Origin: Fuerstiella sp.
GTDB lineage: Bacteria > Planctomycetota > Planctomycetia > Planctomycetales > Planctomycetaceae
NCBI GenBank assembly: GCA_029941865.1
Contig: JAPYTO010000013.1
Location: 1-58,555, forward strand
Direction: 5' to 3'
DNA: 58,555 bases
The first letter of the stretch is position 1, and the number at the start of each line of letters is the position of its first letter. Shown here in pieces: positions 44,944-58,014 of this stretch. The notes beneath the pieces were generated by a model. That model ran no database searches. It was not told the DNA's origin and was given only the letters and a program-made list of their open reading frames with translations. The translations under genes and the position numbers were made by a program.

Positions 44944-45593
44944 CAAACAAGCTCACATGTGAAAACAACAGGCCGAATATCTGACCGAATATAAGCACAA
45001 TTTCGTCATATTGACAGCGTCAACTCGTGTGCCAAAGGATGATTCTCAGTTGCGAAACCTGTGTTTCCGAAGTCTTAACGGACTTATTTGACGTCCGCTG
45101 TACCGTTCGGCCTGATGCCGGAGTTCAAGTATGACGGAGCGGTGGTACTGAGGTGGGTGAAACACGCCGCCAAACACTGTGCTGCGGATTTCTTCACCTG
45201 GCTCAGAACGACAGAAAACACGGAACTCGCCTACAAATCTGTTGGAACGTGACAGAATATCGGCACGTTTTGCGTGTATTGAGCGCAGTGAGTCGGCACC
45301 CAGGAAAGCGGACTTCGGCCGACGATTCGTAATGCAGATTTCTGCTGCCGTCAGCGTGCCGTCTGATCGTGCGTTTAAAAAACAATGGCGAAGCTCCACA
45401 ATTGAGTGGGGTCGCAGCGGTTGACGTCCGAAATCAATGTCAGGGGGGATTCTCCGTCGACATGCGATGTCGGGAGAATGTTATTACGGGCGGTGTGTCG
45501 AGGGGGCCTCGGACACGGCTGAACACAGTACGCGTCATCGTGTGCTGTGCGATTGACAATCGTGGCCAGCCGGATCCGGGAGCTATCGACGCA
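44944..45593. other. Divergent intergenic region
   Basis: About 650 bp. A minus frame at 45046-45399 and the in-frame extension of the next gene back to 45369 show no family signal or signal peptide and are not called. No repeat stands out. Confidence 0.4.
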
Positions 45594-47078
45594 ATGGGAC
45601 TTGTCTCGGTGTACTTTCACAAACTCAATTTGTGTGCGACCGCGCTCACCCTTGTGGCGTGTTTCGGCCCCACACAGAAGGCAGACGCGGCACCGCGACT
45701 GGAAGACCTGGCCCGAAAGGTCGGTGTCCGGATTCTTGCCGATGCCACCTCCGCAAAAGACGTGCTGGAATCCACAAAGAAGTGGATCCCAAACGAAAAA
45801 ATGTCCAGCAACGCTCAGGCCCGCGCGGCATATATTCTGGACAACATGTCGCAATATCGCCGGATGCCGAGTCTTCAATATCCCATCAACCCCAACATCT
45901 ACCAATACTTGATCAATCATCCGGACATTGCCATCAGCACGTGGCGCGTCATGGGGATTTCAACATTGCAGATGTGGCAGACAGATGATTTTGGATACGA
46001 AGCAAAGGCCACGGACGGATCTACCGGGACGGCCGACATACTCTGGCGGGACGGCAATCAGTGCCTGTTTATTGTCGAAGGACGGTATCAAAGTCCACTG
46101 CTGCCTGGATCCATAGAAGCATCAGCGCTGGTCTGGCTGCAATACCGGTTTGTCAGAGCTAAAGACGGTTCGCTGATGGTCAATCAGCAGATCGAAACAT
46201 TTCTGCACTTTCCGTCCAGTGCAATCGAAGCAATCGCGAAGTTGACCTCACGGTTGACCAACTCCATTCTCGATCGCAACGTATTTGAAGTATCGCTGTA
46301 TGCTCGCATGATGACGAAAGCCGCCGAAAAGGAGCCGGAATGGATCGAGCAGCTTGCCCAACGGATGGATGGCGTACCTCCCAGGCGACGCATGGAACTG
46401 GCGTTGGTTGCTCACAACAAAAATCCCACGACAGCAGTGATGCATCCGGTCTCAAACAGCAGGGAACCTTCCGTCCCGGAGCTGCCTGCGTCGGGAGAAT
46501 TCCACGTCTTCGAAATGTCGCTGCAGCAGGTCATCACTCATGTCCCTCTGGTTCCACCTGCGGAAAGGCGTGAATTCCCCAGCGGCCAGCAGATCGGTTC
46601 AGACCACCGGAACACAGCCCGCCCGTATCAATTCATCACGCCGAACGGCGGAAAAACGATCGCTGAACAGCAGGCGCATACGCGACTGGCCGTGCAATAC
46701 GGCAGCCGGCACTCGGGGTCCAACATCAACGGAGCGCCAAACTCAAGGAATTCGGCGTCACCGAACGATCCCGACGACGGTTCCCGCGAAACCAACGTTG
46801 CTGCTCCAGTCACGCCGACACGCGCCGTGGCGACACAGTCAACGCCAATTCGCACAACAACCACGCTTCTGCGAAGTGAAAGTACGCCTGCGAAGCCAGC
46901 GGTCGAATTCCCTTCTCACGCCGTTGAGGATTCACAGACTCTGAAACCTCAGCCGCGCATGTCGTCCCCCGAGGCCGCTGTGTTGACTGATGCAGCGACA
47001 CCGACAGGAACTCCGCCGCCAGCGAATGCGGGAGAATCATCCGACGAAGGCGTGCCGCCGCCGCCGGCCGACGACTGA
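45594..47078 (+). CDS. Secreted protein of unknown function
   Basis: A 494-residue protein starting at ATG 45594 with a signal peptide (hydrophobic residues 9-24, then PTQKADAAPRL). Residues 30-290 look folded, with ADATSAKDVLESTKKWIPNE, YQYLINHPDIAISTWRVMGI and TGTADILWRDGNQCLFIVEG. The last 200 residues are Pro/Ser/Thr-rich and probably disordered. I do not recognise the family. Convergent with the ATPase gene. Confidence 0.7.
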   Translation: MGLVSVYFHKLNLCATALTLVACFGPTQKADAAPRLEDLARKVGVRILADATSAKDVLESTKKWIPNEKMSSNAQARAAYILDNMSQYRRMPSLQYPINPNIYQYLINHPDIAISTWRVMGISTLQMWQTDDFGYEAKATDGSTGTADILWRDGNQCLFIVEGRYQSPLLPGSIEASALVWLQYRFVRAKDGSLMVNQQIETFLHFPSSAIEAIAKLTSRLTNSILDRNVFEVSLYARMMTKAAEKEPEWIEQLAQRMDGVPPRRRMELALVAHNKNPTTAVMHPVSNSREPSVPELPASGEFHVFEMSLQQVITHVPLVPPAERREFPSGQQIGSDHRNTARPYQFITPNGGKTIAEQQAHTRLAVQYGSRHSGSNINGAPNSRNSASPNDPDDGSRETNVAAPVTPTRAVATQSTPIRTTTTLLRSESTPAKPAVEFPSHAVEDSQTLKPQPRMSSPEAAVLTDAATPTGTPPPANAGESSDEGVPPPPADD

Positions 47079-47161
47079 ATCGTGTCTGCATTCAGCGCCG
47101 CGCGAAATTGCCCAACCCGCGGGCTGTTCGCTGATCACTGATTTCAGGGAGACGTTCCGAA

Positions 47162-50100
47162 CTACGCAGCTGACTTCAGCGTGCGGGATTGCTGTGCCCA
47201 ACTGATCCAGTCGGTCACCTCTTCGAGACTGGGTCTCTTACCGCCCCGAATAATACGCTCTCCCTCACTGGTCTCGGAGAACGGTCCGACAAGTGCGAAC
47301 AGGTCAACCGGCCGTTTTTGCGCAAGCTGCTCAACCTCGCTGATACCACACGCAACAAGGATCTGCGAATCGATATCGCGAAGTCCGGGCACCAGGCACA
47401 CCAGGCGAGCCTGAGATTGCCACTGCATGATTGTGTCGCCCGACACACGACGATTGGCAAGACGTTCTGCCACCGAATCGGCTGTCGCAGTCAGCAGGTC
47501 GTCGACGGTATAGACTCCGACAGTCGCCAGACGTTGAGCGGTTTTGGGGCCGATGGAAGGCGCTGCGTCCACATCCGCTGATCGGTTCAGATGGAATTTC
47601 AGTTCCGGCACTCCACACTCATCGTCCTGACTTTCACCCGGAACTGTTCGATAGGACGAAGAGTGTCGGGTCATCCTTTGTCGACGCCGTTTCTGTCTCT
47701 CGTCACGCAGACGAAGAGCAGCGCTGGAAAGTCCCGGTCTCCTTTGCCGTCGAGTAATCGTTTGGTCGCCGGACAGGCTCTGCCGTCGTCGTCGAACTGC
47801 TGACGTCCCGTCAGAACTCGTTCCTGACAGCTGTCCGGCACCGGAGTCAGAAGGGGCGACGAAGAACCGGGAACGCGTACGACGTGCGTCACTGAGTGAC
47901 CGTGAGTGCTGAGACCAGCGGCACCAACTGATGGATTGCTGGCGGTCGAGCGTTCGACCGGACCTGCGATATCGTGCTCCCATCTGAGTGTTCTGAAAGG
48001 CTGCGACCGTATCGTACACGGTCTCGGGACGCATGCGGCTGAGTTCCACTGTGCTTTGAATGCCGGACGCATACAACAACTCGGCGTCGCTGCGGCGCAG
48101 CATCGGGATCTCTGTGGCGAGTTCCGCCTGCCCTCTCCACGCGCGAATCCTGTCAGAGCTGATCGAATAGCCTCGATCACGAAACTGTATCTCAATTTCT
48201 GCAACGGACAGAGTCAGCAGTTCGTCGATGTTGCTGATGCCAGACGCACGAATCGCCTCAATTTCGGCCACGGTGAGTCCGGACAGATCTTCGACTGAAC
48301 TGTCGACTTCCAGATAGAACAGCCAGTTTGTCTGTTCGCTGGGTGCCGGCGTTTCTGCGGCCGGTGGGGGCACGAATGCCGTGACTGGCACGGGCGACTC
48401 AACAGCCACGGGCGCGGACGTGGACGTGGTTTCATTCTGCTTCAGCTGCCGAATGTTTGCGTTCTTCCGTGCGAACAGATCACGAACCTCCTGCTGGCAA
48501 GTGAAAAAGATGATTTGCTGGCCATCCGCAGCCACCTCCATCAACAGGTCCGCGGTAATGGATGCTCGGTCGTCATCCGTCATGATAAAGACGTCGTCCA
48601 GCATCAGAGGCGCCCGCTCGCTGTCTTCCGCTCGATACTGAAGAAGTGCCAGTCGCAGCGCGAGAGCTACCAGATCACGGGTGCCACGACTGAGTTGGTG
48701 CAACGCCTGAAGGTCGCTCGCTTGCCGTGTGGCAGCCAGAATTGTTGTCCCGGTCGCATCTGCCGCCAGTTGATAACAGTCTCCTTCGGTCAGTCTTTCA
48801 ATATACCCGGACGCGATTTCCAGCACACCGAATTCCTGAAATTGTCCGAGTTGTTCAATGACAAGCTGCAGACTGCTTTCCGTTTGTTCCAGCACCCGCC
48901 AGCGATCATTCAGCAATTGAAGTTGGGCGTCCGTCTCAGCGATTTGCCCCTTGATTATGTCCAGATCTTCCAGGCAGCCGGATGATCGCAGCAGCGTCTG
49001 AAGCTCAATCAGACGGCTTTCGTGTTGACCGATTTCATCCGCTATTCGGCTCTCCTGACGTTCCAAATCGCCCAGCAACCGCTGCTCTCGTGCCAGTTCC
49101 GCTTCGACCTCGATGATCGAGTCGCAGGCCGGACCATGCTGTTCACTGACAGGAACAACATCCGCGCTGTGATTGAATTCTTCAGTCAAGGTATCAATCT
49201 GCCCCTGCACCACCGCACAAACGTGCTCGATGTCCTGCAGCGATCTCTGGCCAAGCAGCGATTCCAGCAAGGTCTGATGTGATGCCGCGGCGGATGCGTG
49301 CCTGGCCACGTAGTCGCAAAGCGAGAAGACTTCGCTGCGAATTTCGTCCGTGATGACCTGGCGGTCGACACTGGCCGGATTCGTATCGGCATCCGAGGAG
49401 TCCACTATGGCAGTCCCCATTCTCTGTTCCAGTCGGGTAATGATGGCACGGATCGAATCCAGCGAATCCGGACGCCGACGCGGTGCAGCAGCAACAGTCG
49501 TCAACTGCGAAACTTCACTCTGTATACAGCTGCGAATGCCTGCCCAACGCTGTTGTCGTTCGACCAGTTCGGAAATCTGATCTTCGATCGGTTGGCGATT
49601 CAGAGTGACCGTATTCTGCCGCTGTAACGCCTCAAGCAGCATTTCGAGTCGTCGGACTTCAATGCTCACATCGTGAATTCTGCGATTCAGGTCTGCCGCG
49701 GAGACTCTCAGTTGCCGCAGTTCAGCTTCTGCGTCGAAATTCTGCTGCGAGATCTCTGGCGAAACGCGTCGCATTTCCGCCAAATCGCTCGTCAACTCCT
49801 CCCGCCGACTCTGTAAAGCTGCTTTCCTGTGACGCAGTCCGCCTTCCAACCCATTGCCCTCACGTTCCCGAACCGCCTGCTTAACAGCCATTTCAGCGCG
49901 AAGGATCTCAGATGCTGTGGCAACGCCGATGTCGTCCAGACAATGTCGCGTCAACAGATCAAAACGAACAGCCTCCCGCTCACCGACGCTGAAGACCTCG
50001 CGATAGGTCGTCTCATTGGCCCATTCCGGAAGATCACTGCAGTGTACAGTGACCGGCATTCCCGTCGCGAGATCCACGGTGGAAAGTTCCGTAGAAAGCC

Positions 50101-50359
50101 CATGGCTCCGCTCGCGGGTCAGGCGTATTGATCGCCCTCGTGATTCCAGAGAAATCGCCCCGCCGAACCTTCCGTCGGCTGTGTGAAAGGCCTGATGCTC
50201 TGCCGTATAGCCAAACAACAATCCACGCAGAAAGTGAACCAATGTGGTTTTTCCGATGCCGTTGTCCCCATAGATAACGGTCAGTCCCTGGGACAGATCC
50301 CGCAGCTCTACGTTATTCAGGACTCCAAATTGCTCAACATAGATATCAAGAAAACGCAT
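47162..50359 (-). CDS. SMC/YhaN-like ATPase with two DUF4332-like modules
   Basis: A 1065-residue AAA/ABC-type ATPase of the RecF/SbcC/YhaN group. N-terminal head: Walker A GDNGIGKT (31-38). Residues 150-500 form two helical coiled-coil arms. C-terminal head: signature LSRGTRDLVALALRLALLQY (556-575), Walker B PLMLDDVF (584-591), then QQIIFFTCQQEV, where the usual H-loop His is Gln. After a Pro/Thr linker come two similar helix-hairpin-helix modules (about 695-825 and 930-1062), each ending in W-x-x-WxQxSR (SWCRWSQHSRSL; DWISWAQQSRTL), separated by an Arg-rich stretch (855-895). They resemble DUF4332 and suggest DNA binding. Its SbcD-like partner is the upstream gene. Likely role in DNA end processing or structural maintenance. 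Confidence 0.85.
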   Translation of the reverse strand: MRFLDIYVEQFGVLNNVELRDLSQGLTVIYGDNGIGKTTLVHFLRGLLFGYTAEHQAFHTADGRFGGAISLESRGRSIRLTRERSHGLSTELSTVDLATGMPVTVHCSDLPEWANETTYREVFSVGEREAVRFDLLTRHCLDDIGVATASEILRAEMAVKQAVREREGNGLEGGLRHRKAALQSRREELTSDLAEMRRVSPEISQQNFDAEAELRQLRVSAADLNRRIHDVSIEVRRLEMLLEALQRQNTVTLNRQPIEDQISELVERQQRWAGIRSCIQSEVSQLTTVAAAPRRRPDSLDSIRAIITRLEQRMGTAIVDSSDADTNPASVDRQVITDEIRSEVFSLCDYVARHASAAASHQTLLESLLGQRSLQDIEHVCAVVQGQIDTLTEEFNHSADVVPVSEQHGPACDSIIEVEAELAREQRLLGDLERQESRIADEIGQHESRLIELQTLLRSSGCLEDLDIIKGQIAETDAQLQLLNDRWRVLEQTESSLQLVIEQLGQFQEFGVLEIASGYIERLTEGDCYQLAADATGTTILAATRQASDLQALHQLSRGTRDLVALALRLALLQYRAEDSERAPLMLDDVFIMTDDDRASITADLLMEVAADGQQIIFFTCQQEVRDLFARKNANIRQLKQNETTSTSAPVAVESPVPVTAFVPPPAAETPAPSEQTNWLFYLEVDSSVEDLSGLTVAEIEAIRASGISNIDELLTLSVAEIEIQFRDRGYSISSDRIRAWRGQAELATEIPMLRRSDAELLYASGIQSTVELSRMRPETVYDTVAAFQNTQMGARYRRSGRTLDRQQSISWCRWSQHSRSLSDARRTRSRFFVAPSDSGAGQLSGTSSDGTSAVRRRRQSLSGDQTITRRQRRPGLSSAALRLRDERQKRRRQRMTRHSSSYRTVPGESQDDECGVPELKFHLNRSADVDAAPSIGPKTAQRLATVGVYTVDDLLTATADSVAERLANRRVSGDTIMQWQSQARLVCLVPGLRDIDSQILVACGISEVEQLAQKRPVDLFALVGPFSETSEGERIIRGGKRPSLEEVTDWISWAQQSRTLKSAA

Positions 50360-50475
50360 GGTACATCCCGTCTACCCGAGTGACTAAAACTTAAACTCCA
50401 GATTCAACACCATGAATCCGACGCACGGATTCCCGCCGTCGACAATACAATCAACTTAGTGCTATCCCACGACAA

Positions 50476-51585
50476 CTAGGCGGCAGACCGAAGCAGACTT
50501 AGCCCAGTCACCAAATTCCGCGAAAGACTGCACCCCTCTTTCGGGGGAATGTCCTGACCCGCGCCGCCGCTCACATCAGGATTGCTGCGACAGCCGTTTG
50601 TGACGTTGAGGTACTGCTCGACAGCAGCACCTTGTGGTGCCGTCACCTGCACGACTGAATCCTCGCTGAAGCAAATGCTTCGCGGCCAGAAGCCACGGTG
50701 CCCTCCCTGGAGGAATTGGCGCAAACGCGTTAACAGATTCAGTTCGCTCAGGTCTGCAATGCCTTTCAGATCCGTCGTCACCTTAGTGTGCAGCACCCAG
50801 TCGACAATTACGGTCTGCGTGCTGCGTCGATCCAGCGAACGGGACGTACGACTGATTTCGGCGATCAGCCCGTCAACCGTCGAAACTTCCGGAAGCGAAA
50901 GTTCTTCGGTTGCGAAACGAATAACATCTGTGGCCAGGAATGTGGACTGAATTTCACGCGTGGAAAGATCCACTTCAACAAGTATGCATCCGCAGTCGGC
51001 AGCTTCTTCCGGCCTGACCGACTGGACCGGCCCGGCGGAAAGTTTCAGACACCCGTCAGTCGCGCGACGATCTGCGTTCGCCGTTATTGATGTCCCGGGG
51101 ACCGCATGGTAAACGATACGGTTCGGGAGACTGCATTCTCGATCGTTGCCGATGGCAACAGTGAAGGACGTATCCGGGGCGGTCGTGGCAGCAACCGATT
51201 GCAGCCGGATGCCACCCCCATCCTCGTGCTGAACGCCAATGACGTCTCCCGGACGGACGATCACATCACAGACGGTGCGCAGAGCCTCGGCTGATGCGTG
51301 AGAATTCGCAGCAACGACAACCTTAATTCCGCGGCGTTGCAATGGTTCGAACTGATCGGCAAGCCAACGTGAGATGGCTTCGATATCTTCGTCAGACTGG
51401 GCCACACCGCCAGCAATCAGCAGAAAATCCGCTCGCTGAGAAATCGTCGTCTGAATGAGGTTCCTGACGGCCTGTCGCACGCTCCCGGTCGCCAACCGCC
51501 GCAGCCAGTCGGGCGAATCTGCGAGTCCGCCGACTGCCGTATCCAATCGTAGAAAGTCGGAATGAACAAACCTGACTGTGGCCAT
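50476..51585 (-). CDS. Degenerate SbcD/YhaO-like metallophosphoesterase
   Basis: A 369-residue protein from ATG 51585, preceded by GGGAGG at five bases. Length and motif order follow SbcD/YhaO exonuclease subunits, but catalytic residues are replaced. The expected H-A-A-DLHLD reads HSDFLRLD (8-15): the Asp and His metal ligands become Phe and Arg. The expected AGDLYD reads AGGVAQ (58-63), and GNHD reads NSHA (94-97). No GHxH motif is visible. The later PEEAADCGCILVEVD segment still matches the family. Being paired with the ATPase, it is probably a non-catalytic partner. A frame to 52464 adds N-terminal sequence without similarity and overlaps the sigma-factor gene. Confidence 0.8.
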   Translation of the reverse strand: MATVRFVHSDFLRLDTAVGGLADSPDWLRRLATGSVRQAVRNLIQTTISQRADFLLIAGGVAQSDEDIEAISRWLADQFEPLQRRGIKVVVAANSHASAEALRTVCDVIVRPGDVIGVQHEDGGGIRLQSVAATTAPDTSFTVAIGNDRECSLPNRIVYHAVPGTSITANADRRATDGCLKLSAGPVQSVRPEEAADCGCILVEVDLSTREIQSTFLATDVIRFATEELSLPEVSTVDGLIAEISRTSRSLDRRSTQTVIVDWVLHTKVTTDLKGIADLSELNLLTRLRQFLQGGHRGFWPRSICFSEDSVVQVTAPQGAAVEQYLNVTNGCRSNPDVSGGAGQDIPPKEGCSLSRNLVTGLSLLRSAA

Positions 51586-52091
51586 CGATGCCTCCCTGCA
51601 TTTACTGACTTGCAAGCACCCGTAGTGGTGCGCCACCCCTTCCATCCATGAGGGGGGCCTGTGCTGAACACCGCAATTTAACTGATCAGCGTAGAGTCGC
51701 CTAGGCCATCTCGGCAGTTTCCGCCGGACGTGGTTTTCGGTTTTGGAACAATTCAGTGGCAAACATGGCGTCAGCGACGAGCCAATGCGTTGCGTTCCGT
51801 CGGGGCTGCAGCCACGGGTTGCTCTTTGTTGGCCAACATTGGGGGAAATCCCCACCGGGTAAAAACCGGCTGTTTGGCGACATCCTCCGTCCTCGCCCCC
51901 CCCCTTGGCGCATGATTGGGCAAGGAGGCGGGAATGAAACAGAACGGTGGATTCGGCAAACTCGGAAAAATAAAACAGTTCCGTCGGAGACGGAACCGTT
52001 GCGAAGGTCCTGGACGCAGTGAACAGCTGCTTCTTCAGCTCTTCGCCAAGCCGTCGCGCTGATCCGCTTTCTGATGATGGATGACTGAAAA
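51586..52091. other. Divergent intergenic region between the ATPase pair and the sigma factor
   Basis: About 500 bp expected to hold both promoters. A run of nine C lies at 51896-51904, and short stems GGGGGAAATCCCC and CCGGGTAAAAACCGG near 51840-51870. No gene is supported. Confidence 0.5.
51591..51596 (-). promoter_or_regulatory. Ribosome-binding site deciding the SbcD-like start
   Basis: GGGAGG on the minus strand, five bases before ATG 51585. It argues against starting further upstream. Confidence 0.8.
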
Positions 52092-52919
52092 ATGCCGCCA
52101 ACAGCAGACTCACCCCTCGATCCTCATGGTCATGGCACGACCGAGCAGGTTTTCGACAATGGCCAAGTGACTGACATGACAACAACGACGAGACGACGCA
52201 CCGCGTACAACACAAAGCCGTCCACTGTAAGGCCGTCCGCTGCAGAGCCGTGCCGCGACGATGCCAGAGACCAACTGATACTGGACAACCTTGGCTATGT
52301 GAAGCATATCCTTGGTAAACTGCTGCATCAGCTGCCGCGTGGAGTTGATGCCGAGAATCTCGAGTCGGCCGGCGTTCTGGGTTTGATCGAAGCGGCCTCA
52401 CAGTATGACCCGAGTCGCAATGTCGAGTTCCGGACTTTTTCCTACCGGCGAATACGCGGGGCAATTCTGGATGAGTTGCGCAGGAACTGTCCGTTGTCGC
52501 AGCAGATGTTGCAGAAGATCACAATTCTCAGACAGCTGCGAAGCCAGTTTCAGGGAGCAGTCAGCGTTGAGCAATTGGCTGATGCCTCAGGAATGTCAAT
52601 CCGTGAAGTAAACGACTGCATTCAGGGCTTCCGCCTGACGCGACCGGACAGCTGGAGCGATGCTGTTCGCGTCAGCGGCCACGTCGGTGACAACGACAAT
52701 TCTGGCGAACTGGAAACTGCCGAGATGCAGCAGGTTCTTGCGGACGGCATTGAATCGCTTCCGGACAAGATGCGAATCGCCATCGCGCTGCACTACAACG
52801 AAGGGCTGAAGCTGAAGGAAGTCGGTGACGTCCTGAATCTGTCGGAATCACGCGTATCGCGAATGCTTGATGCAGCCAGAACGCGACTGCAGGAATATGC
52901 TCAACGACGAGGTTATTGA
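52092..52919 (+). CDS. fliA: RNA polymerase sigma factor, FliA/WhiG family
   Basis: A sigma-28-type factor of up to 275 residues. Region 2: NLGYVKHILGKLLHQLPRGV, ENLESAGVLGLIEAASQYDP and FRTFSYRRIRGAILDELRRN. Region 3: VSVEQLADASGMSIREVNDC. Region 4: ESLPDKMRIAIALHYNEGLK and LNLSESRVSRMLDAARTRLQ. The N-terminus is uncertain: ATG 52092 or ATG 52176 (MTTTTRRRT) could start it, neither with a strong ribosome site. FliA factors usually direct flagellar or motility genes, but planctomycete members may have other targets. Divergent from the SbcD-like/ATPase pair. Confidence 0.88.
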   Translation: MPPTADSPLDPHGHGTTEQVFDNGQVTDMTTTTRRRTAYNTKPSTVRPSAAEPCRDDARDQLILDNLGYVKHILGKLLHQLPRGVDAENLESAGVLGLIEAASQYDPSRNVEFRTFSYRRIRGAILDELRRNCPLSQQMLQKITILRQLRSQFQGAVSVEQLADASGMSIREVNDCIQGFRLTRPDSWSDAVRVSGHVGDNDNSGELETAEMQQVLADGIESLPDKMRIAIALHYNEGLKLKEVGDVLNLSESRVSRMLDAARTRLQEYAQRRGY

Positions 52920-53042
52920 TCGCCATCCTGGTGCCGGCGAGCGTGGAATACGTTCGGGTGTGCACACGGCGACCGAGTCCCGCTGACAAGAGCATTGCCC
53001 TCCCCCGCAACCGGGTGTGTGCAGTTCAATTCAGGGTGTTCT

Positions 53043-54860
53043 CTAAGCATCCGATTCCACCAGGACCAGCGGTAGAATCTCACCGGTATTCTTAATTCGA
53101 CTGTAGACCGTTTCGTTGTCCGTGTGGTATCCCAGAACTGCCCGCAACATTTCGCCCCGACGCAGACTGCGGTACAGCAGCAGCTGCAGCAGTCCGATTC
53201 GCACTCGGTAACCTGCGGCCTGCTGAGACGTCGCTACGTGCCTGTCTTCGGTCACGGTCAACCGGTTCCAGTCCGCGTCAGCGGCACGTCGATCTGGATG
53301 CCAGTCGATCACCAATGGCATTGCGACTCCGCCTGTGCTGTGAGCCTTCAACACAAGTTCAGAGCCATCCTGTTCGAAACTGCCCGCAGCGTTTTGAATG
53401 CGGTCGTCGTCCAGCCAGGTCGGCACGGCACGTAGCGAAACGCATTCGCCCTGCAGAATCAATTCCCGCGTAATTGAGTTCGTCTCCACATCAATTCCAT
53501 CAGCCAGTGAGAGACGAGTTTCAAGTTCGATCTGTGCGTCGGCGTGCGGGGTCGTAACCGTATCCGTAAGGACCGCGAAGTGTTCTTTCAACGCCAGCAT
53601 GACATGCCGAACGTGACGCACTCCGTCCGCAGATCCGGCTTCCAGTTCCGCGAATGCAACCTCCTTGTCGCTGAACCAGCACGTGCAGACCCAGTCACCG
53701 GCCGATTCACAGACCTTGCCGTCCGCGGTGATACGGTGCTTCCACCCGCCGCCAATGACCTGACTGCCCAGAGCAGAAAGCTGCATGCCGGGGATGGACT
53801 GGTCCCAGTCAATGGCCATAACGTCGGCATCAATCTGCATCGTATTTCTAAGGACGGCAGTCGTCGCCCAGTCCGATTGCCCGCTGAGATTCGCGTGCCA
53901 CTGTTTCTTGTCAGCCTTCTTTGGTTTTCGCTTAGCTCCCTTTGCCAGGGCTGCGACGAATGATCCGAGTCCTGTGTCCGCAGCCGTTTTTGTCAGCTTC
54001 ACAGCAGTTGCCAGAAGTGTGAGATCGGATGGGACGTCGGTGCGATCAGGACGACCATTTGCTGCGTCGGAGCGGAAAATGCCATCGGGGGTTGCCAGCA
54101 CGGCCAGACGATCAAGTGTTTTCAGCCAGCGCGCTGTCGTCTTTTCATTTGCCCATGACTGTTTGAACGATTTCGCCCAGCCGAGAATCCGGACGAACGG
54201 TGCCAACCACTGTCCTGCTTCCCGAGCAAGAGCAGCATCAAGCGTGCCGTCCGTATCCGTAGAGGCCCCCAGACAGTCGGCCACGGCCTTTGTCGAAACG
54301 ATCTGCCACTGCCGTGCCGATTGCTGTGACGCCAACACCAGACTCAACAGAAACGGCACTTCGGCCTGAGTGACGATGTTGGCAACCGTGGGAACCACTT
54401 CGGTTCCGTCCGCTGCGTCCGTTTCAGAGGATGGATAAAACTCAGTCGTGGATATTTGCGCCAGTCGGACAAAGACTGTGGCCAGTTGTTCGCTCGAGAA
54501 TCCATCAGGGCATCGCAGCAGCGTTTCGCCGGCAACCAGGACAAATGACGCTGACAGCGGTGACGGCTCGGCAGCGATGGTGACAAGTTGGTCGATCAGT
54601 TCGGTGCTCTGACCAAACGTTCTCATCCCGTGGCACAGTTCACGATCGACGTCTGCGGAAAATGTTCCCGCCGACCAAACGGCGACAAACGGAGCATTTC
54701 CGAATACCTTTTCGAAGCGTTTTCGGATCTTCGCATGACCTTTCAGGAAGGCCGAGTGAAACGCGTTAACATCGCCGGCTGACGCAGCCTTTTTCAAGGC
54801 GGCATCACTATTCCTGCGAAACCTTAGTTTCGTAAGAGATTGAGACACAGCATCAGACAT
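53043..54860 (-). CDS. Large conserved protein of unknown function
   Basis: A 605-residue protein from ATG 54860 (MSDAVSQSLTKLRFRRNSD). No signal peptide or membrane helix. The first 300 residues are mainly helical; after a Lys-rich linker (KGAKRKPKKADKKQ) the C-terminal 300 are beta-rich (GWKHRITADGKVCESAGDW; VRHVMLALKEHFAVLTDTV; AAGYRVRIGLLQLLLYRSLR). The beta part loosely recalls the C-terminal sheet domain of heparinase II/III-type proteins, but I would not assign that function. Convergent with the sigma-factor gene. Confidence 0.7.
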   Translation of the reverse strand: MSDAVSQSLTKLRFRRNSDAALKKAASAGDVNAFHSAFLKGHAKIRKRFEKVFGNAPFVAVWSAGTFSADVDRELCHGMRTFGQSTELIDQLVTIAAEPSPLSASFVLVAGETLLRCPDGFSSEQLATVFVRLAQISTTEFYPSSETDAADGTEVVPTVANIVTQAEVPFLLSLVLASQQSARQWQIVSTKAVADCLGASTDTDGTLDAALAREAGQWLAPFVRILGWAKSFKQSWANEKTTARWLKTLDRLAVLATPDGIFRSDAANGRPDRTDVPSDLTLLATAVKLTKTAADTGLGSFVAALAKGAKRKPKKADKKQWHANLSGQSDWATTAVLRNTMQIDADVMAIDWDQSIPGMQLSALGSQVIGGGWKHRITADGKVCESAGDWVCTCWFSDKEVAFAELEAGSADGVRHVRHVMLALKEHFAVLTDTVTTPHADAQIELETRLSLADGIDVETNSITRELILQGECVSLRAVPTWLDDDRIQNAAGSFEQDGSELVLKAHSTGGVAMPLVIDWHPDRRAADADWNRLTVTEDRHVATSQQAAGYRVRIGLLQLLLYRSLRRGEMLRAVLGYHTDNETVYSRIKNTGEILPLVLVESDA

Positions 54861-54970
54861 GTTCAGTGTTATCTCTGAATTGTTTTTCGAAATGGTCTTT
54901 ACACTCCGCGTCACGGGCGCCCGTGTTTTCGGACGAGTGTGTAGTCAAGCCCAGGAACAGGGGTTGGCCC

Positions 54971-55037
54971 GTAGCCGAACTCGCCAGAGTTTGGAGGTTT
55001 TTTGTTATGTCGTCCAAAGTCTGGCGACTTCGGCTAC
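54971..55037. repeat. GTAGC palindromic repeat, complete copy
   Basis: Starts GTAGCCGAACTCGCCAGAGT and ends GTCTGGCGACTTCGGCTAC; its reverse complement matches 1-54. Arms of about 25 bp. Confidence 0.9.
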
Positions 55038-55100
55038 CCCAAAATCAGGACTTAACCGAGCACTGGAATTGCATCCACATTAAGTTTACTAATGCTGACG

Positions 55101-55168
55101 GTAGCGGAAGTCGCCAGAACTTTCGGCGTTTCCCCTCGTTTGCCGAAACTCCTGGCGAGTTCCGCTAC
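55101..55168. repeat. GTAGC palindromic repeat, complete copy
   Basis: Starts GTAGCGGAAGTCGCCAGAAC and ends CTCCTGGCGAGTTCCGCTAC. Closest to the copy at 5113-5180. Confidence 0.9.
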
Positions 55169-55227
55169 TAAACATGGACAGACCACTGGAACTGCTTCGC
55201 CCCGAACACGTCCCTGCGGATTGTGTT

Positions 55228-57051
55228 CTATCCAAGACTCACTCGCTCTTCCGGGTAGTTAAAACGCCCCGTTTCGTCTGGAACCGCCATGGCCAGCAGC
55301 AATGTGATCGGACCGACTCGGCCCAGAAACATCACCACGCAAATCAGCAATCTCGACGGCATCGACAGATTCGGCGTGATTCCGGCGGAAACTCCGACCG
55401 TGCCAAACGCGCTGGTGGCTTCGTACAGGTGATCCAGAAAACGATCCGGCTGACGCTCAAACACCACCAGCAACCCGGTGGTTGCCAGCACAATGAAGAT
55501 TCCCACGGCGATCATCGACAATGATCGCGAAACCTGCGTCGTCGGAATGCATCGTCCGAAGATTTCGACACGACTGCGGCCGCGCAACACGGCCAGAATG
55601 TTCAACATCGTCACAGCAAAAACGACAGTCTTCACACCACCCCCGGTCGAACCAGGAGCGGCTCCCACAAACATCAGAAAAATCGCCAGCAGCTTGGTCG
55701 CCGGATTTATCGCCTGGTGGTCAACCGTGTTAAAGCCCGCCGTGCGAAATGTCACCGATTGAAACCATGCATCCGCAAAACGCCCAACCACGGAATCCCC
55801 CGCGGGTGCTTCCAGTGACTCCAGAACAAACCAGCCCATCGTTCCCAGCATCAGCAGCGCAACCGCAGAATACAGCACAAGCCTGGTGTGTACGCTTAGG
55901 CGCGGACGCTGACCTTCTGCGTGAAACATGGAAGCGGCAACACGGCGGCGCAGACGCGCAGTGGCAAATCGCCAGAGATCATGAACGACGGCAAAGCCGA
56001 GACCGCCCAGGAAAATTAACGCGGTCAGTGGTCCCCACACCTGCCACAGCGTGCCCATCCCCTGAAATCCTTCGTCACGCAATGAAAACCCAGCGTTGCA
56101 GAATGCGCTGACGGAATGAAACGTCGCCTGCCAGACACGCTCTCGAAACGGAAGGTCGGGCCACAGTCCCTGCAACAATACGGCCCCCAGCGCTTCGACG
56201 CCGACCGTAAACAGCAGAATCGTCAGTAACAGCCGTCGAGAACTCTGAACTGTTTCCGCGTCCAGCATGTCTCGCAGGGTCCGAGCTTCACGAAACTGCA
56301 TCCCCTGACGACCGCTCAATACCGCCACGAATGCCCCAAACGTCAGAATGCCCAGACCACCGATCTGAAACAGTCCAAAAATGACTGCGTGCCCGGTCGG
56401 GCTCCAGTAACTTCCCGTCGGTTCCACGATCAGCCCGGTGACACAACTGGCACTCGTCGCCGTGAACAATGCCACGTTCCAATCGGCCGACTTGTTGATG
56501 CCCCCGACCGACGGCGCCCGGCAGACAGGCAACTTCAGCAGCAGCGTGCCCAGTGTAATGACGACCAGAAACGAACCGACCAGCAACACGGCAGAATTCT
56601 GTGTCTTCGCCGCCAGACTTCGGCAGCCGGAAAGCACGCTGAAGACAACGACGACCGCGAGTACGATCTCGGTCCAGATAGCGACGCTGAAGGAGCTGCC
56701 GGCAGAATCATCAGCAGCGTACCAAAGCCAAAGCAGCCCGACGGCCCACAAGATCGGAAGGACAAGGCTGACCGAACGGATGGCCGTTGCAAAGTTCGTC
56801 TGCCTGGTTTCCAGCAGCAGGCGCAGACCGCGACACAGCGAAAGGCAGGACATCGCGGCCAGCACCAGCCACGTCATCTCGTTCACCCGAGCTGCAGAAA
56901 CACCAGTGAACCCGGCATGCACGACCAACACAACGGCCCCAACCAATATGGCGGTCAGTTCGGAGCGACGCAGGCGACCGATTGCATCTGCCCATTTCGG
57001 CCAGGCAAAACGGTCATGCAGTTCGCCGTTTTCAGAATCGTGTTCCAGCAT
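55228..57051 (-). CDS. TrkH/KtrB-family potassium transporter
   Basis: A 607-residue membrane protein for potassium uptake. The four selectivity-filter loops are recognisable: TSASCVTGL (199-207), SAFCNAGFSL, TFRTAGFNTVDH and SAFGTVGVSAGI, each with the conserved Gly. The first 150 residues add several extra membrane helices compared with KtrB (about 450 residues). Start ATG 57051. The regulatory TrkA/KtrA subunit is not in the window. It lies just downstream (10 bp) of the SMP-30-like gene on the same strand. Confidence 0.92.
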   Translation of the reverse strand: MLEHDSENGELHDRFAWPKWADAIGRLRRSELTAILVGAVVLVVHAGFTGVSAARVNEMTWLVLAAMSCLSLCRGLRLLLETRQTNFATAIRSVSLVLPILWAVGLLWLWYAADDSAGSSFSVAIWTEIVLAVVVVFSVLSGCRSLAAKTQNSAVLLVGSFLVVITLGTLLLKLPVCRAPSVGGINKSADWNVALFTATSASCVTGLIVEPTGSYWSPTGHAVIFGLFQIGGLGILTFGAFVAVLSGRQGMQFREARTLRDMLDAETVQSSRRLLLTILLFTVGVEALGAVLLQGLWPDLPFRERVWQATFHSVSAFCNAGFSLRDEGFQGMGTLWQVWGPLTALIFLGGLGFAVVHDLWRFATARLRRRVAASMFHAEGQRPRLSVHTRLVLYSAVALLMLGTMGWFVLESLEAPAGDSVVGRFADAWFQSVTFRTAGFNTVDHQAINPATKLLAIFLMFVGAAPGSTGGGVKTVVFAVTMLNILAVLRGRSRVEIFGRCIPTTQVSRSLSMIAVGIFIVLATTGLLVVFERQPDRFLDHLYEATSAFGTVGVSAGITPNLSMPSRLLICVVMFLGRVGPITLLLAMAVPDETGRFNYPEERVSLG

Positions 57052-57060
57052 TGACTGAAA

Positions 57061-58014
57061 TCAGACTGTCAGGACAGGTTGATCATTCACTGCATCAAAC
57101 GTGGTAGAACCAATAAACAGACATCCGGCGTTCGGGTGACGCTGCTGCTGTTCCGGTTCCATGTGCTCGACGGCGGTCGTCAGGAACAGCTGAACCCGGC
57201 CATCAACCGTGACCAGCTGAGGGCAGGTGACCCGAGGGGATCCGGGGCACGTCCACACCGCTTCCACGGCACCGGAGTCCAGACCATACTGTCGAGCAAC
57301 GCCGAAATCGGGGTCGCCTGGATCATAAAACGCCACAATCAGGCTGCGGCCGTCCGGAGTAATAATCATGCCGTCCGGAAAAATCTGCTCCGACGTCACG
57401 TCCACTACAGTGCTCGGATCTCCAATCGTGCCGGATTCAAGATCCAGGGAAGATCGAGTAATTGTCTTTGACGGAGAATCAATGTCGACCAGAATCAAGC
57501 GGCCGTTTTCCTGCGGCACGACAGCTTTGCCGTTGGAGCAAATCTGGTCATCACGCAGTTGAATCAGTGAACGGTCGTGCTGTCTCCAGAGATACAACCC
57601 CGCCTTTTTTGTTTCGAAATTCAGATCCTTGCACCCGAAGATCAGATTGTCCCCGTAAATGACTCCGTCGTTGATGATCGTGTTCTCAACGGCACTATCC
57701 ACACCGCCGCACAGTTCGGTCCAGTCATTCGTATTCGTGTCGAACAGCCCCAGCGACCGTTCTACTCCGGCAACGAACACGCCTGGCTGACTGGTTGGAA
57801 ATGCAAATCCCGGACGACCAGGCAGGTCGAAGCACTCGTTACGTCCGGCAGCGGGATCCAGAATATTGATCGATCCCGCGACCGCGTCGCCGCCGTGCTG
57901 AATAGCGACCCAGCTGATACGGCCATCGTTCAGCGAATACGGACCTTCGGGCAGGAACCGCAGGCCGTCCGAATCCGGACGAAACAGAACGTGGCATTCC
58001 GTCGAAATTGTCAT
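57061..58014 (-). CDS. SMP-30/gluconolactonase-like beta-propeller protein
   Basis: A 317-residue protein matching the SMP-30/gluconolaconase-LRE pattern: FLPEGPYSLNDGRISWVAIQ near the N-terminus, where the family has the metal-binding Glu, then IINDGVIYGDNLIFGCKD, SNGKAV and FPDGMIITPDGRSLIVAFYD with the metal-binding Asn/Asp positions largely kept. Such enzymes hydrolyse sugar lactones with a divalent cation; the substrate is not known. Start ATG 58014; no signal peptide, so probably cytoplasmic. It may be co-transcribed with the potassium transporter gene. Confidence 0.82.
   Translation of the reverse strand: MTISTECHVLFRPDSDGLRFLPEGPYSLNDGRISWVAIQHGGDAVAGSINILDPAAGRNECFDLPGRPGFAFPTSQPGVFVAGVERSLGLFDTNTNDWTELCGGVDSAVENTIINDGVIYGDNLIFGCKDLNFETKKAGLYLWRQHDRSLIQLRDDQICSNGKAVVPQENGRLILVDIDSPSKTITRSSLDLESGTIGDPSTVVDVTSEQIFPDGMIITPDGRSLIVAFYDPGDPDFGVARQYGLDSGAVEAVWTCPGSPRVTCPQLVTVDGRVQLFLTTAVEHMEPEQQQRHPNAGCLFIGSTTFDAVNDQPVLTV

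Follow-up and report, generated by a model that had tools for sequence, protein, structure and literature searches.

The window, by which is meant the whole stretch of 58,555 nucleotides of Fuerstiella sp. DNA analyzed here (contig JAPYTO010000013.1), encodes a nuclease-dead subunit of the YhaO/SbcD/Mre11 fold (P0001, 369 residues, positions 50476–51585, reverse strand), followed by an SMC/YhaN/Rad50-like ATPase with a DUF4332 tail (P0002, 1065 residues, positions 47162–50359, reverse strand). That P0001 is dead as a nuclease is nearly certain. The favored reading, with a probability of about 60%, is that P0001 serves as the scaffold of an ATP-gated DNA clamp in which DNA contact has moved to the DUF4332 tail of the partner; in evolutionary terms, a machine that cut DNA seems to have become one that binds it without cutting. 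Mre11-Rad50 is usually viewed as an ATPase-gated nuclease. The Mre11-Rad50/YhaON kind of machine is known, and a nuclease-free clade that extends across a bacterial class and includes a DUF4332-tailed branch is new; no earlier report of such a clade was found in the open-access literature.

P0001 was characterized from its open reading frame, alignments, profiles, an AF2 model and a fold search. The frame starts with an ATG at position 51585, which is preceded by GGGAGG. A sequence-only reading had assigned the protein the length of its family; it is in fact shorter than intact planctomycete YhaO (369 versus ~420 residues). P0001 has no Pfam match even at E<10, Metallophos included, and scores 13 bits with the NCBIfam sbcd model, below the cut-off of 77.65. 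A phmmer search of the PDB with the single sequence returned one unrelated match and nothing else, and a Pfam scan of 18 window-type members gave only scattered, unrelated weak matches (best E 0.023). Comparison of a profile of 18 window-type proteins (A3) with a profile of nine intact planctomycete YhaO proteins (A4) using hhalign gave a probability of 99.4% (E 5e-22, 302 columns), and A4 searched against whole genomes recovers P0001 with an E-value of 4.4e-11. All nine PDB matches of the window-type profile are SbcD/Mre11 proteins, with weak E-values (0.028–0.8). The AF2 model of P0001 (pLDDT 81, pTM 0.79) was used in a fold search of the PDB, in which all 33 matches at E<=0.001 are Mre11/SbcD; their TM-scores of 0.33–0.49 indicate that the fold has diverged from the Mre11/SbcD structures in the PDB. 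Profile comparison and predicted model together identify P0001 as a YhaO/Mre11-fold protein that has retained the fold. Thus, homology and fold bear out the earlier description of the protein as SbcD/YhaO-like, with the refinement that its precise relative is YhaO and not SbcD.

The metal site was evaluated at eight positions, corresponding to the seven metal ligands and the catalytic histidine of Mre11/PolD-DP1, as listed in the relevant passages of PMC4996933 and PMC3175470. The residues of intact proteins (D, H, D, N, H, H, H, H) are replaced by F, R, G, S, H, D, G and A in P0001, such that one of eight matches. In the former motif I (residues 8–15, HSDFLRLD; positions 51541–51564, reverse strand), a gapless alignment of HAADLHLD of intact YhaO with HSDFLRLD places Phe11 and Arg13 at the sites of the metal aspartate and the metal histidine, respectively, exactly as the sequence-only reading had proposed. 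All 18 window-type proteins of A3 share Arg13, and an arginine is found at the same position in 44 of 82 degenerate homologs (see below). The GD of motif II has become GG (residues 59–60) within FLLIAGGVAQS (residues 54–64; 51394–51426, reverse strand), and the GNHD of motif III reads NSHA (residues 94–97) within AANSHA (residues 92–97; 51295–51312, reverse strand). The sole matching residue, His96 at the catalytic-histidine position, is a histidine in only two of 19 window-type sequences. Motifs I–III lie in confidently modelled, ungapped regions; motifs IV and V fall in a low-confidence stretch (residues ~131–180) where the alignment is uncertain and the residues vary between alignments. Neither GHxH nor the motif-IV histidine aligns in P0001 when compared with intact YhaO. 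The claim that all visible nuclease motifs are altered therefore holds, with motifs I–III changed as read and GHxH not aligning. As judged from alignment and model, the two-metal site of P0001 is gone.

The loss extends well beyond the window. Orthologs of P0001 (E<=1.5e-41) were found in all eight same-genus genomes and in one further genus among 58 genomes searched. The altered motifs are common to the nine aligned orthologs (from the window, seven other same-genus genomes and G012), all of which have open frames. A scan of genome contigs with the ATPase alignment identified 21 loci, all with planctomycete titles, including two labelled Candidatus Kuenenia. The degenerate subunit is located directly upstream of the ATPase, at a distance of 32–499 bp, in each of the 18 loci that reach that far; seven of these 18 (L069–L075) represent the same genes as in the nine aligned orthologs. 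The subunit of L089 is weakly recognized by the intact profile (E 7e-4).

When homologs from relatives and 39 loci picked among class-wide low scorers were added, 109 YhaO-type homologs were obtained, of which 27 keep all eight positions, 82 keep between zero and five, and none keeps six or seven. Left out of this count are five SbcD-like sequences, a fragment (L126) and two same-gene duplicates (L166 and L168). The class-wide matches listed (148 genomes) score either >=348 bits or <=165 bits with the intact profile. Among the 39 class-wide low-scoring loci, 34 are degenerate and the other five are the SbcD-like members of another subfamily with seven or eight of eight positions. Degenerate members are spread over ten or more families of the class (f1, f5, f7, f9, f10, f11, f12, f13, f14 and f16). 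The degenerate set forms one split with an SH-like support of 1.0 in four FastTree trees, three of which were calculated without the motif columns; degenerate sequences account for 51 of 78 tips in two of these trees and 75 of 102 in the other two, with nine near-identical sequences left out. The first extended tree had also included the five members of the other, SbcD-like subfamily (L137, L147 and L163 with 8/8 positions, L145 and L162 with 7/8), four of which were placed on long branches inside the degenerate part, the enclosing node having a support of 0.09 (the value printed for the rerooted tree). The four trees were calculated with these five and the fragment L126 removed.

A phylum-wide draw of 119 genomes yielded 55 listed matches, eight of them in the window's own family. 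Among the other 47, 46 keep at least six of eight positions, many of them belonging to other SbcD-like subfamilies, and one of these 46 (L215) is a cut sequence with all six readable positions kept. Within these 119 genomes, degenerate proteins are therefore almost absent outside the class. The remaining match, L190 (G191:C174), is a YhaO-type protein from outside the class that keeps four of eight positions and shows the same loss pattern, which may reflect a separate loss or a transfer. These comparisons answer the question of whether the loss is shared beyond a single genome, since 82 of 109 homologs in at least ten families are degenerate; on the alignments and trees, the loss is ancient and common to a large clade of planctomycetes. 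As a separate observation, two intact YhaO proteins from different genera (L028 and L097) are nearly identical in the tree, a possible case of transfer or bin contamination.

The eight positions have not been lost evenly. The asparagine of motif III and the first histidine of motif V are each kept in one of the 82 degenerate proteins, and the catalytic histidine is kept in six. The aspartate and histidine of motif I are kept in 30 and 22, the aspartate of motif II in 23, and the last histidine and the motif-IV histidine in 14 each. In Mre11, the two motif-I residues, the motif-II aspartate and the last histidine are ligands of one of the two metals, and the motif-IV histidine is a ligand of the other. 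The four residues of the first metal are kept jointly in 11 of the 82 proteins, compared with 0.39 expected under independent loss, a comparison that is indicative only because the sequences are related. These eleven proteins (L035, L130, L131, L133, L134, L142, L143, L146, L153, L155 and L156) lack the asparagine, the catalytic histidine and the first motif-V histidine. Three of them (L130, L143 and L146) also keep the motif-IV histidine, and no member keeps the whole other-metal half. The eleven are possible one-metal forms and candidate one-metal phosphoesterases. The branching order differs between trees, with f5 splitting first in the small trees and the window type first in the larger trees, where the one-metal members are nested within the rest of the degenerate clade. 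A scheme in which the one-metal members branch first finds no support in these trees, since either f5, which includes one such member (L035), or the window type splits first. Catalytic residues of this kind are rarely regained, and the ancestor of the clade would therefore already have lacked the asparagine, the catalytic histidine and the first motif-V histidine. The simplest inference is that the remaining ligands were lost later and more than once.

The eleven proteins bear on another explanation of P0001, namely that it is a hydrolase in disguise, with residual or relocated metal chemistry and a different activity. Single-metal chemistry is conceivable in those eleven clade members, but the window branch has lost the same residues too. 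Its single conserved acidic or histidine residues (those present in at least 17 of 18 window-type members) are His8, Asp67, Glu194, Asp206, Glu227, Glu281 and His296, and position 220 is D/N and position 262 D/E in 17 members. Such fixed columns are few and scattered along the sequence. A metal site relocated to other aspartate or histidine residues thus appears unlikely, and the hydrolase explanation as a whole is very improbable.

Although the alteration of all metal motifs at once could suggest a decaying pseudogene or an assembly error, an explanation to which virtually no weight is given here, it is refuted by the open frames of the nine aligned orthologs, by the identical arrangement in all 18 loci reaching upstream and by the substitution rates. 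The NG86 dN/dS ratios of the nuclease-like genes, from six window-type pairs, are 0.14–0.18 for the three closest and 0.09–0.11 for three further pairs, and those of six ATPase pairs are 0.10–0.20, all of which are approximate values since dS exceeds 1 in several pairs. The ratio of 0.14–0.18 indicates a maintained protein rather than a decaying one. The proposal of a pseudo-nuclease is strongly supported by the combination of a kept fold, a lost metal site, an old and shared loss and purifying selection; the size of the degenerate clade, the remodelling of the ATPase and the ATPase-dead members (see below) go beyond what the sequence-only reading had noted.

The gene of P0002 starts 116 bp downstream of P0001 and contains an intact Walker A motif (GDNGIGKTT, residues 31–39; 50243–50269), ABC signature (LSRGT, residues 556–560; 48680–48694) and Walker B motif (LMLDDVF, residues 585–591; 48587–48607), all on the reverse strand, which confirms the description of a full-length ATPase with intact Walker motifs directly next to the nuclease-like gene. 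In the alignment of ATPases, the H-loop position is occupied by Gln622 (48494–48496, reverse strand); the H-loop histidine is present in all 31 long-arm relatives versus one of 26 DUF4332-type ATPases. The tail comprises a first DUF4332 domain of the helix-hairpin-helix type (residues 678–822; 47894–48328), a variable basic linker (residues 836–919; 47603–47854) with 21% R+K versus 12% D+E, and a second DUF4332 domain (residues 921–1060; 47180–47599), likewise on the reverse strand. Pfam matches above cut-off are AAA_23, SMC_N and DUF4332 (4.6e-37), with HHH_5 (9.9e-7) and Cdd1 within the tail. The AF2 model (pLDDT 76, pTM 0.36) is informative on the two tail domains, which it supports as helical and well folded, but not on the overall arrangement of the protein. 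Rad50, Lamassu LmuACB chains and SMC heads rank highest among its fold matches. The DUF4332 tail has no significant match in the PDB. The two DUF4332 hits in the window's genome are both in P0002 (47180–48328), and many relatives contain further open frames, roughly 390–720 residues in length, that match the DUF4332 tail.

The pair resembles YhaO/YhaN, of the SbcD/SbcC and Mre11/Rad50 superfamily, in its Mre11 fold, its nuclease-then-ATPase gene order, its YhaN-type head with an LSxGT signature and an LDD Walker B, and the absence of CxxC between Walker A and signature. It differs from YhaO/YhaN in having no metal site, a shorter subunit, a span about half as long, a glutamine in the H-loop and two added DUF4332 domains. 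The span from Walker A to signature is 525 residues in P0002. In ten measured partners of intact YhaO it is 1031–1091 residues, with no DUF4332 and no CxxC in the span, and in 21 long-arm partners of dead subunits it is 894–1013 residues, also with no DUF4332. The window-type ATPases and those of L089, L105, L118, L119 and L121 combine a span of 525–624 residues with two DUF4332 domains, except in L073 and L087, where the contig ends first; L092 has a span of 593 residues and DUF4332 matches in the following frame. In the ATPase tree (n=57), the 47 sequences of the degenerate-partner branch form one split and the 26 DUF4332-type sequences another, both with a support of 1.0.

Not all members of this branch have kept an intact nucleotide site. 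All six scored Walker A, signature and Walker B positions are kept in 19 of 26 DUF4332-type ATPases, or in 20 if the Asp-to-Glu change at the second Walker B acid of L118 is allowed. Walker A, signature and Walker B are all lost in L083 (5207–8533) and L085 (3–3278), which nevertheless have frames open for more than 1,000 codons and are 90% identical with a dN/dS of 0.115. A dead subunit lies upstream in the L083 locus as well, making it a doubly dead pair of the Mre11-Rad50 type. Four other members (L079, L080, L082 and L087) carry changes in one or more of the nucleotide-binding and H-loop motifs. No nuclease-like frame was detected beside the DUF4332-type ATPase in L119 (G022:C19) and L121 (G035:C23), where the gene upstream of the ATPase encodes Hsp70 (Pfam 1.1e-89) and PPK2, polyphosphate kinase 2 (1.1e-68), respectively.

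These exceptions are what would be expected of a post-enzymatic architecture factor, in which the DUF4332 tails do the work, the Mre11- and Rad50-like parts serve only as a frame for oligomerization and bridging, and both ATP and the nuclease fold are on their way out. The tails are also the most conserved part of the ATPase: mean pairwise identity is 0.61 in each DUF4332 domain, compared with 0.41 and 0.49 in the head halves and 0.35 in the arms; in L083, the tails remain 0.55–0.60 identical to the rest while the heads fall to 0.28–0.32. On the other hand, the 19 ATPases with complete nucleotide-binding positions indicate that ATP still matters in most members, and the dead nuclease fold has kept a conserved core of its own in the window-type proteins. 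Such a factor is accordingly regarded as unlikely, although less so than the other alternatives.

In the favored scaffold-and-clamp reading, the dead subunit would have been retained because it holds the heads of the ATPase dimer together, and it would present a DNA-facing surface with the invariant arginine at the former metal-histidine site. ATP binding would close the ATPase heads on DNA. Loss of the H-loop results in slow hydrolysis in ABC transporters, and the replacement of the H-loop histidine may similarly slow hydrolysis here. Judged by their domain type, the helix-hairpin-helix-type tails could be the principal site of DNA contact. Such a machine would bind or bridge DNA, or DNA ends or branched DNA, with no cutting, and may act as a non-cutting clamp or sensor and as a chromosome-architecture or repair-scaffold factor. 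ATP gating is not general to the branch, given the loss of the Walker motifs in L083 and L085 and the alterations in four more members, and the dead subunit is dispensable in some cases, as seen from L119 and L121. Tentatively, these forms could be arranged as a stepwise exit from enzymology, in which half of the metal site was lost, then the rest, the arms were swapped for a DNA-binding tail, and finally the ATPase itself or the nuclease gene was lost, leading to a DNA-binding complex with a purely architectural role on planctomycete chromosomes; of these stages, the one-metal, no-metal and no-ATPase forms would all survive in species living today.

A different function is suggested by the defense system Lamassu. 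In PMC10586767, LmuB is described as a short-armed, SMC-like ATPase related to Rad50, in which hydrolysis residues of Walker B are altered. P0002 could accordingly be an SMC-like sensor of this kind, with the original nuclease displaced and another effector doing the killing. P0002 shares with LmuB the short arms and a change among the hydrolysis residues, located in Walker B there and in the H-loop here; the LmuACB chains are among the nearest folds of its model, and it matches the PADLOC LmuB profile (8.5e-13). The match to the mad3 profile is stronger, however (1.5e-14), and both matches are explained by a general resemblance to SMC-like proteins. Unlike Lamassu, which has a separate effector (LmuA) beside LmuB and LmuC, the window pair has an Mre11-fold pseudo-nuclease as the partner; P0001 has no PADLOC match, and no LmuA effector was recognized in P0001 or in the five neighbors (45369–58014). 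The pair is not patchy in distribution, being present in eight of eight same-genus genomes with neighbors common to the closest relatives. A Lamassu-like sensor is therefore considered improbable.

Among the five neighbors scanned with PADLOC, a sigma factor matches MzaA weakly (1.8e-4, 69 residues) and the other four have no match. The case for a defense island is weak given this result and the conserved neighbors. The gene of this sigma-70-type factor (52092–52919, forward strand; Sigma70_r2 1.9e-13) diverges from the pair, and homologs are located close to the pair in four other same-genus genomes (L069–L072). Two long frames (45369–47078, forward strand, and 53043–54914, reverse strand) have no Pfam match at E<=0.001 and are kept beside the pair in L069 and L070.

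Two other known cases resemble the scaffold-and-clamp reading in part. As stated in the relevant section of PMC4996933, the B-subunits of eukaryotic replicative polymerases have an Mre11-like phosphoesterase fold that has lost all catalytic residues and was "converted to a scaffold". Their partner is a polymerase and not an SMC/Rad50 ATPase, and the event is independent. The Mimivirus protein R555, in the account given in the corresponding part of PMC3175470, is a viral Mre11-Rad50 fusion with altered motif residues; it differs from the window pair in being a fused gene, in being viral and in having two described substitutions. Next to the polymerase B-subunits, the planctomycete clade would thus be a second example of a scaffold derived from an Mre11-like fold, and one in which possible intermediates survive. 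A pair that is maintained across a bacterial class despite a dead nuclease is a natural experiment separating cutting from clamping, and the role of the clamp without cutting becomes directly testable in this clade.

In the rest of the window's genome (~90% complete), the A4 search found no intact YhaO and the sbcd model has no match at E<=0.001; there are 18 metallophosphoesterase matches, whatever their role. Intact YhaO (E<1e-100) is present in two of eight same-genus genomes and was not found in the other six; it occurs in 15 of 36 genomes of the family and in 29 of 58 overall. The only other YhaO-type hit in the window's genome is a degenerate protein on another contig (L110; G000:C70:16500–24500). 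This 543-residue frame keeps none of the eight positions and adjoins a long-arm YhaN-type ATPase with no DUF4332, which falls in the same branch as the 21 long-arm partners of dead subunits described above. Similar loci are found in five other same-genus genomes (L099, L104, L108, L109 and L115), and G005 and G006 have search matches.
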